DNA from: Streptomyces montanisoli
Lineage (GTDB): Bacteria; Actinomycetota; Actinomycetes; Streptomycetales; Streptomycetaceae
NCBI RefSeq assembly: GCF_017813245.1
Contig: NZ_JAGIQL010000008.1
Span: 1 to 64,000, forward strand
Reading direction: 5' to 3'
Length of the DNA stretch: 64,000 bases
Below the pieces are notes generated by a model. That model saw only the letters and a list, made by a program, of their open reading frames with translations, had not been told where the DNA came from and ran no database searches. Both the position numbers and the translations under genes were made by a program. Positions 47,847 through 49,338 of the stretch are shown here, one piece after another (the stretch's first letter is position 1; every line of letters begins with the position of its first letter).

Positions 47847-48635
47847 ATGAACAAGTCGCTCAAGGCCATAGTTCCGCTGGCGGTCCTGGGAGCCCAGGTG
47901 CTGCTGCCCGCCGCCGCATCGGCGTCGCCCTCGAACTCGGGCGCCACGACGACCTACCGGGCGCACATGACTCCGGTTCCGCTGAACGGCCAGAAGTCCG
48001 CTTCCGGCACGCTCACGCTCAAGCTCCACGGCAACCAGGCCACCATCCATGAGCAGGTCTCCGGCGTGGCCAAGACGTTCATGAACGCGCCGTTCCCGCA
48101 CGTGCAGCACATCCACGGCGGGGCGATGGGCACCTGCCCCACCGCGTCGGCCGACGCCAACCACGACGGTGTGATCAACACGCCCGAGGCGCAGCCCAAC
48201 TACGGGCCGATCCAGACCACCCTGTCCGTCAAGGGCGACACCAGCCCCGCGGCCGGCACCAACGTCAAGATCGCGCCGAGTGGGTCGAGCTTCACCTACG
48301 ACCGCACCATCACGCTGGACGCGGCCACCCTCAAGTCCATCCGCAGTGGCATCGCGGTCATCGTCGTCCACGGCCTCGACCCGGCCACCGCTCCCAAGGC
48401 CGCCACCACCGAGAAGAGCCCGCTGGTGCCCAGCCTGCCGCTGGCCGCCACCGCGCCGGCGATCTGCGGTTCGCTGAAGGCGGCCCAGGTCAGCCACATG
48501 CCCAAGGGCGGCGCCGCGACCGGTTCCGGCAGCACCCAGTCCACGCACGACGCCGGCCTGCTCGCCGCCGGCGGCGGTCTGCTCGCGGCCGCGGGCGGTG
48601 CCTGGTACCTGCGCCGCCGTCGCACCGCCGCCTGA
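47847..48635 (+). CDS. CHRD-like secreted, C-terminally anchored protein
   Basis: A 262-residue exported protein. Signal peptide (about 1-27), an extracellular domain with a CHRD-like pattern (TYRAHMTPVPLNG, TLKLHGNQATI, PHVQHIHGGAMG and a second His/Asp loop ADANHDGVI), a Gly/Ser linker and a C-terminal hydrophobic helix followed by Arg-Arg-Arg-Arg. This end matches a cell-wall sorting signal in layout, but no LPXTG-like motif is seen before the helix (the segment reads STHDAG). It lies 25 bp upstream of a class F sortase gene. CHRD assignment is moderate. Confidence 0.75.
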   Translation: MNKSLKAIVPLAVLGAQVLLPAAASASPSNSGATTTYRAHMTPVPLNGQKSASGTLTLKLHGNQATIHEQVSGVAKTFMNAPFPHVQHIHGGAMGTCPTASADANHDGVINTPEAQPNYGPIQTTLSVKGDTSPAAGTNVKIAPSGSSFTYDRTITLDAATLKSIRSGIAVIVVHGLDPATAPKAATTEKSPLVPSLPLAATAPAICGSLKAAQVSHMPKGGAATGSGSTQSTHDAGLLAAGGGLLAAAGGAWYLRRRRTAA

Positions 48636-48660
48636 TGACGCGGCCCCTCACCCGCTGACG

Positions 48661-49338
48661 ATGCGTCGACGCACGCAGCCGGTCAGGAACGGCCGCCGCG
48701 GCCTCACCGCCGTGGCGGCCGTCTGCGCCCTGGGCGGCCTCGGCACGCTCGCCACGGCCGTGGCCGAGCAGCCAGGACCGCCACCGCAGCCGCCCCGCGC
48801 GGCCGCCCCGTCCGCCACCCCTACCCCCCATCGATCCCATCGAGCAGCCACCGCCCCGGCGCCCGCGCGTGCCTTGCCCGCCTCACGCCCGGTGTCCCTC
48901 GCCATCCCGTCCATCGGCGTGCACACCTCGCTCATGAGCCTCGGGCAGAACAAGGACGGCAGCGTCGAGGTCCCCAGCCGGCCGCTGAAGGCCGGCTGGT
49001 ACCGCTACTCGCCCACCCCGGGCCAGAACGGCCCCGCGGTGATCCTCGGCCACGTCGACTCCGACGAGACCGGGCCCGCGGTCTTCTACCGCCTGGGCGC
49101 GCTGCGCCCCGGCGCGTCGGTCAGCGTCCGCCGCGAGGACGGCACCACCGCGGTCTTCACCGTCGACAAGGTCCGTGAGTACCCCAAGGACGGGTTCCCC
49201 ACCCGGACCGTCTACGGCAACACGCGCCGACCGGAACTCAGGCTGATCACCTGCGGGGACTGGGACGCCGACCACCACACGTACCGCGGCAACACCGTCG
49301 TCTTCGCCCACCTCACGCGCACCACCGCAAAGGGATGA
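48661..49338 (+). CDS. Class F sortase
   Basis: A 225-residue sortase. N-terminal membrane anchor (about 12-32), Pro/Ala-rich linker, then the catalytic domain (about 75-222). The His is in VILGHVDSDETG (about 125-136), the Cys in LRLITCGDWD (about 195-204), and an Arg is nearby for the oxyanion hole. Class F sortases are actinobacterial, and their substrates are poorly defined. It is cotranscribed with the upstream CHRD-like protein. Start: ATG 48661. Confidence 0.85.
   Translation: MRRRTQPVRNGRRGLTAVAAVCALGGLGTLATAVAEQPGPPPQPPRAAAPSATPTPHRSHRAATAPAPARALPASRPVSLAIPSIGVHTSLMSLGQNKDGSVEVPSRPLKAGWYRYSPTPGQNGPAVILGHVDSDETGPAVFYRLGALRPGASVSVRREDGTTAVFTVDKVREYPKDGFPTRTVYGNTRRPELRLITCGDWDADHHTYRGNTVVFAHLTRTTAKG

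Follow-up and report, generated by a model that had tools for sequence, protein, structure and literature searches.

In the window, by which we mean the whole 64,000-nucleotide stretch of Streptomyces montanisoli DNA that was analysed, two adjoining genes on the forward strand encode an exported protein, the putative substrate, followed by a sortase (Table 1). The gap of 25 bp between them and the assignment of the second gene to the class F sortases, both given in an earlier note on this DNA, are borne out, the sortase scoring 199.2 bits against the NCBIfam class F model NF033748 (cut-off 166). The N-terminus of the substrate reads as a basic start, then a hydrophobic run, then small residues. 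We use "CHRD-like" descriptively for the substrate, which reaches 19.6 bits with the CHRD model PF07452, below its cut-off of 24.1.

Table 1. Features of the substrate and sortase genes (positions in the window)
Feature	Position	Strand	Basis
Substrate gene, exported 262-residue CHRD-like protein with GVDTG-type C-terminal sorting domain	47847..48635	+	ORF (ATG at 47847, stop codon ending at 48635), NF058571
Signal-peptide-like N-terminus, residues 1 to about 27	47847..47927	+	Sequence read directly; low model confidence
Folded domain, residues about 31–210, predicted Cu/Zn-SOD-like beta fold	47937..48476	+	AlphaFold, PDB fold matches
Sorting motif PKGGAATG, residues 219–226	48501..48524	+	Conservation in homologues and in class F partner tails
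STHDAG, residues 232–237, variable linker	48540..48557	+	Homologue and partner-tail alignments
Predicted membrane helix (residues 238–255) and RRRR stop-transfer (256–259)	48558..48623	+	Model, alignment
Class F sortase gene, 225 residues	48661..49338	+	ORF (ATG at 48661, stop codon ending at 49338), NF033748
Sortase N-terminal helix, residues 16–35, probable membrane anchor	48706..48765	+	Model, low confidence there
Sortase catalytic domain with H131 (49051–49053), C198 (49252–49254) and N211 (49291–49293)	48865..49317	+	

The sortase also matches PF04203 with 88.8 bits, whereas the class E model NF033747 gives 18.1 bits where 160 are required, setting the protein apart from the class E sortases. 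Its predicted structure (mean pLDDT 83.8) has the eight-stranded sortase fold, and all 50 PDB entries listed as matching it are sortases, with a best Z of 17.9. By sequence, no match to the PDB was obtained with the window sortase at E ≤ 0.01, and a profile of 33 sortases (the window sortase and 32 of 74, mostly near-identical ones having been dropped by hand) gave three matches at the same threshold, to sortases of other kinds. PDB entry 5uus, titled SrtF of Corynebacterium diphtheriae, is not one of the three. As it is named as a class F structure in the literature, PMC9520033 included (the articles cited by PMC number were available in part), its class assignment may deserve a check.

In the active site the catalytic histidine, H131, is found in 225 of 226 aligned sortases and the cysteine, C198, in all 226. 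The catalytic arginine is absent: N211 takes its position, aligning in HMMER with the arginine of a class A chimera, and over the 226 sequences this column holds asparagine in 215, aspartate in 8 and serine in 3. The same replacement has already been reported for actinobacterial class F enzymes (PMC6998099, citing Malik and Kim 2019, in the part available), and since asparagine is typical of them the missing arginine does not exclude the window sortase from the class. The accessible text of PMC9520033 describes the catalytic arginine as touching the backbone of P4 and P3, argues that it serves mainly in substrate binding and selectivity, and describes an evolved LMVGG-specific sortase with serine at this position. 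We infer that, where signals of the GVxTG kind have lost Leu-Pro, the asparagine accompanies that loss; literature searches on sortase motif, class and catalytic arginine returned no paper linking the asparagine to the GVxTG motif.

The folded domain of the substrate is predicted with confidence (mean pLDDT of 89–97 in ten-residue AlphaFold blocks), and all 50 PDB entries listed as matching the model are superoxide dismutases or superoxide dismutase copper-chaperone domains. The best of them, with a Z of 11.4, superposes at 2.5 Å over 112 residues; Candida SOD5 is also among them (Z 10.3). By sequence the PDB gave matches at chance level, with a best E of 0.41. His85, His88, His90, His175, Cys97 and Cys207 are invariant in an alignment of 28 sequences (the window protein and 27 of 40 relatives listed, of 47). 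The histidines lie at places which we take to resemble the copper site of Cu/Zn superoxide dismutase. While the predicted fold is like that of these enzymes, a full Cu–Zn site is not evident, because the invariant histidines are His85, His88, His90 and His175. A wall-bound copper or superoxide dismutase-like protein is a possible reading of the model.

The substrate ends, as the earlier note observed, in a hydrophobic helix and four arginines; AlphaFold places the helix at residues 238–261 with low confidence (pLDDT blocks of 46–64), and RRRR occupies 256–259. That note had found no LPXTG-like motif. Indeed, reading the tail directly for L[PA]xTG reveals neither LPXTG nor LAXTG, but the tail is not without a motif, as residues 218–259 match the NCBIfam GVDTG sorting domain NF058571, over a 44-position C-terminal region, with 33.9 bits against a cut-off of 29. 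The LPXTG model PF00746, whose alignment begins at profile position 20, reaches 14.5 bits (cut-off 20). TIGR01167 gives 15.9 bits, a figure equal to its cut-off, but its alignment begins only at position 12. In both models the LPXTG pentapeptide presumably precedes the positions aligned.

In place of LPXTG stands GAATG (222–226), as part of the motif PKGGAATG in the context PKGGAATGSGS. The earlier note proposed aligning the C-termini of homologues, and such an alignment does show a conserved motif: Pro219, Gly221, Thr225 and Gly226 are identical in 34 of 34 sequences, these being the window protein and 33 of 79 named homologues, mostly near-identical ones having been dropped by hand. P3 in these sequences is alanine, valine or proline, and Arg257 is kept in 33 of the 34. 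The substrate has in common with the NF058571 domain a GVDTG-type motif, a linker, a helix and a basic tail, and differs in the pentapeptide, which is GVDTG in the model and GAATG here. A non-standard tag of the protein's own, GAATG, would account for the failure to find the usual LPXTG in it. The motif lies 11 residues ahead of the helix and 29 ahead of RRRR. In four proteins LAETG or LPDTG is about 26–27 residues before the basic cluster, counted by eye, so that GAATG is only slightly further out than LAXTG and LPXTG; the corresponding distance in 235 of 236 partner tails has a median of 31 and a range of 27–42. AlphaFold confidence falls along this stretch between the domain and the helix, and the stretch carrying the motif is probably flexible.

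The earlier note had looked directly ahead of the helix, and suggested that the sortase might read a different motif around STHDAG. There is good support for recognition of a different motif, but that motif is GAATG within PKGGAATG. Recognition of STHDAG, with cleavage near the helix, is extremely improbable. It does stand directly ahead of the helix, as in classical signals, and 20 and 27 of the 34 CHRD sequences have its Asp235 and Gly237, respectively, yet its Ser, Thr, His and Ala are common to 5, 5, 1 and 11 of them, respectively. The partial conservation of Asp235 and Gly237 is confined to the CHRD subfamily: across 140 tails of class F partners, in which linker length is variable, they occur in 12 and 26, while Gly226 occurs in all 140. 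STHDAG was rejected as the motif on account of this variability.

To place the motif in a wider setting, 195 distinct sortase domains in actinobacterial loci were surveyed, these having been found with a profile grown from the window sortase and called by that profile rather than each by its score against the curated class F cut-off. As the loci include some fetched through the GVDTG model (L012–L041) or through the substrate (L053–L082), which favours the reading of the motif, the counts were repeated on loci from sortase searches alone. There, an anchor-like tail is carried by an upstream or divergent neighbour of 124 of the 155 sortases. The tail filter gave no neighbour for the other 31; a motif-bearing neighbour was seen by eye in 11 of these and none in 20, of which 4 have less than 400 bp upstream. 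The pattern PxGx[VAMP]x[TGAS]G is present in 105 of 132 distinct partner tails from these loci (mean 3.1 and maximum 9 after shuffling), and one of two strict forms of the motif in 108, the remaining 24 being missed. For the whole set the figures are similar, with 154 of 195 sortases having a neighbour with an anchor-like tail, 132 of 162 tails matching the pattern (shuffled mean 3.95, maximum 10) and 137 of 162 matching one of the two strict forms. L[PA]xTG is found in only 2 of the 162. A looser expression, [GASH][VAMP]x[TGSA]G, matched 155 of the 162 tails, but 72 were expected by shuffling, and it was therefore replaced as too weak by the stricter forms and a background set. Neither strict form matches any of the 28 anchor-like tails in that set, drawn from 800 kb of background genome.

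The same motif emerges when the 140 class F partner tails are aligned without any hint of it (the window tail and 139 of 163 listed, mostly near-identical ones having been dropped by hand, with 30 coming from loci retrieved by way of the GVDTG model or the substrate). The final glycine is present in 140, the proline in 127, the first glycine in 117 and the glycine two places on in 126. P3 is Val, Ala, Pro or Met in 139, and P1 is Thr (85), Ala (30), Gly (23) or Ser (2) in all 140. NF058571 matches 116 of these tails at E ≤ 0.01, and at least 86 of 110 once the 30 are set aside; PF00746 matches 11 of the 140.

Linkage in the genome points the same way. In the 12 genomes whose class F sortases were listed completely, all 21 of the GVDTG matches over the cut-off lie on the same strand as a class F sortase domain and 231–574 bp before it, distances that were compared by hand. 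Such class F neighbours may have been the basis on which NCBI defined the GVDTG model, so the 21 of 21 linkage and the 116 of 140 tail matches are not wholly independent evidence and may in part be circular. The named CHRD loci are the best 80 of 349, and 73 of them contain a class F sortase within the stretch covered. Two of the other seven end at contig ends (L264, L269) and five have full flanks (L241, L245, L281, L282, L307).

Taken together, these observations make it likely that the two genes form a dedicated anchoring pair, in which the class F sortase cuts GAATG between Thr225 and Gly226 and links the SOD-like protein to peptidoglycan. The signal peptide would take the substrate across the membrane, where the C-terminal helix and RRRR would hold it. 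The sortase, probably membrane-bound itself, would accept GAATG in its active site as others accept LPXTG. By analogy with the sortase family, Cys198, assisted by His131, would attack the Thr225–Gly226 bond (encoded across positions 48521 and 48522), and the substrate would be passed to a peptidoglycan precursor. The SOD-like domain would then act at the cell surface, joined covalently to the wall by its neighbouring sortase and by no other.

The earlier note also allowed that the protein is simply membrane-anchored, in which case the neighbouring sortase would serve other proteins. The helix and RRRR would hold the substrate on their own, the tail has no LPXTG or LAXTG, and literature searches gave no wall-linkage data for the CHRD/GVDTG group. 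According to the accessible part of a 2026 article on Actinoplanes, moreover, a mutant lacking its four class F sortases looked normal and showed no phenotype (PMC13251363). A plain membrane anchor, on the other hand, needs no P-x-G-x-x-x-T-G in the linker, let alone one invariant in 34 of 34 sequences, nor would it account for a motif that is absent from the background tails and tied to class F sortases. We consider simple membrane anchoring unlikely in view of the conservation of the motif and the linkage of the genes.

It would seem very unlikely that the protein bearing GAATG is anchored by another sortase of the genome instead of its neighbour. There are certainly candidates, as the 7.24 Mb genome has 11 sortase matches, of which 9 also match the class F model (E ≤ 1e-15), 7 scoring over its cut-off, and sortase specificity can be lax in vitro, as with SrtE1, which cuts both LPETG and LAETG (PMC5148588, in the part available). 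Against this, the close linkage of sortase and substrate is kept across many actinobacterial genera, the class of residue at P1 clusters on the sortase tree, and at seven loci where one sortase has two partners both carry the same xGG[LI]GG variant of the motif.

The variation at P1 and P3 was followed through the partners of the 226 sortases, leaving out one spurious ORF (the second tail at L213) and with the motif register of the L010 partners set by hand. P3 is proline in the partners of 34 sortases, as in APGTG, HPPTG and FPQTG, and through such forms the GVDTG-type signal is joined stepwise to LPXTG. P1 is other than threonine in 49 (Ala 31, Gly 16, Ser 2). On a FastTree tree of the sortases, threonine or its absence at P1 requires 15 changes, compared with a mean of 45 and a minimum of 40 in 50 shuffles. 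In a mirror-tree comparison 111 CHRD–sortase pairs gave r of 0.735 against a permutation maximum of 0.152; neither this signal nor that of the tree separates co-evolution from common descent. No sortase residue was shown to track P1 among the rows listed, in which phylogenetically independent pairs were too few (fewer than six cannot reach 0.05).

Nine sortases have two partner genes, and xGG[LI]GG is present in both partners at the seven loci referred to above (L010, L098, L105, L106, L110, L136 and L146). At these loci one partner is divergent and P1 is glycine. Five of the seven pairs have no convincing similarity outside their tails, with blastp giving no match or E values of 0.84 and worse, and the other two are related (E of 2e-6 and 4e-9). 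More tentatively, and with rather less assurance than for the window pair itself, we suggest that the actinobacterial class F enzymes may be a separate sorting branch, mostly of one enzyme and one neighbour, which reads P-x-G-[GASH]-[VAMP]-x-[TAG]-G and not LPXTG. The asparagine in place of arginine may be part of doing without Leu-Pro, and one subgroup may serve two neighbours and cut a Gly–Gly bond, not Thr–Gly.

NCBIfam already models the signal, and has entries for the sorting domain as well as for the sortase class. A full-text search for GVDTG returned no sortase paper, as judged by titles and the beginnings of abstracts, and a search for the CHRD domain with sortase returned no paper. 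In the literature searched, no biochemical evidence was found for an actinobacterial class F sortase acting on a GVxTG peptide. For C. acnes, the available part of PMC13257024 cites the class F sortase as recognising LPXTG, which differs from the window signal in that GAATG has neither the leucine nor the proline. In the overall plan of its anchor the window pair is like the class E/LAXTG system of Streptomyces, and LAETG proteins are present in the same genome. Also comparable are AMIS_11010 and AMIS_36440, the neighbours of srtF1 and srtF4 in Actinoplanes missouriensis. As far as the accessible text of PMC13251363 goes, these were left out of further analysis because no pentapeptide motif had been found in them, and, like the window substrate, they have a signal peptide, a helix, a basic tail and an adjoining class F sortase.

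The physiological roles of class F sortases are stated to be unknown in the accessible text of PMC13251363. The present analysis offers for this class a concrete consensus and a predicted cut site, and it gives most of the sortases examined a predicted substrate of their own. With a consensus and a predicted bond to be cut, the question of what class F sortases do becomes one for a peptide-cleavage test. If the proposal is right, natural sortases that read GVxTG without a catalytic arginine would also be of interest to sortase engineers.

Some further observations concern the relatives of the substrate. Two CHRD relatives, at L261:1586–2404 (−) and L267:2147–3202 (−), end soon after the conserved Cys-Gly without any sorting tail and provide a contrast within the family. 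A third CHRD-like copy in the S. montanisoli genome (C369:23163–23828, reverse strand) is 40% identical and has one in-frame TGA within the match. Close relatives of the substrate (L232, L233, L253 and L257) occur in Actinomadura, Modestobacter, Catenulispora, Curtobacterium and Arthrobacter, with up to 64% in the best segment among the matches listed (the best 80 of 349). Within Streptomyces, 49 of 392 sampled genomes, S. montanisoli included, have a relative, the best in another genome being 47% over the match. Sideways transfer of the substrate gene is possible, the 64% for a best segment and the 47% over a match being different measures.
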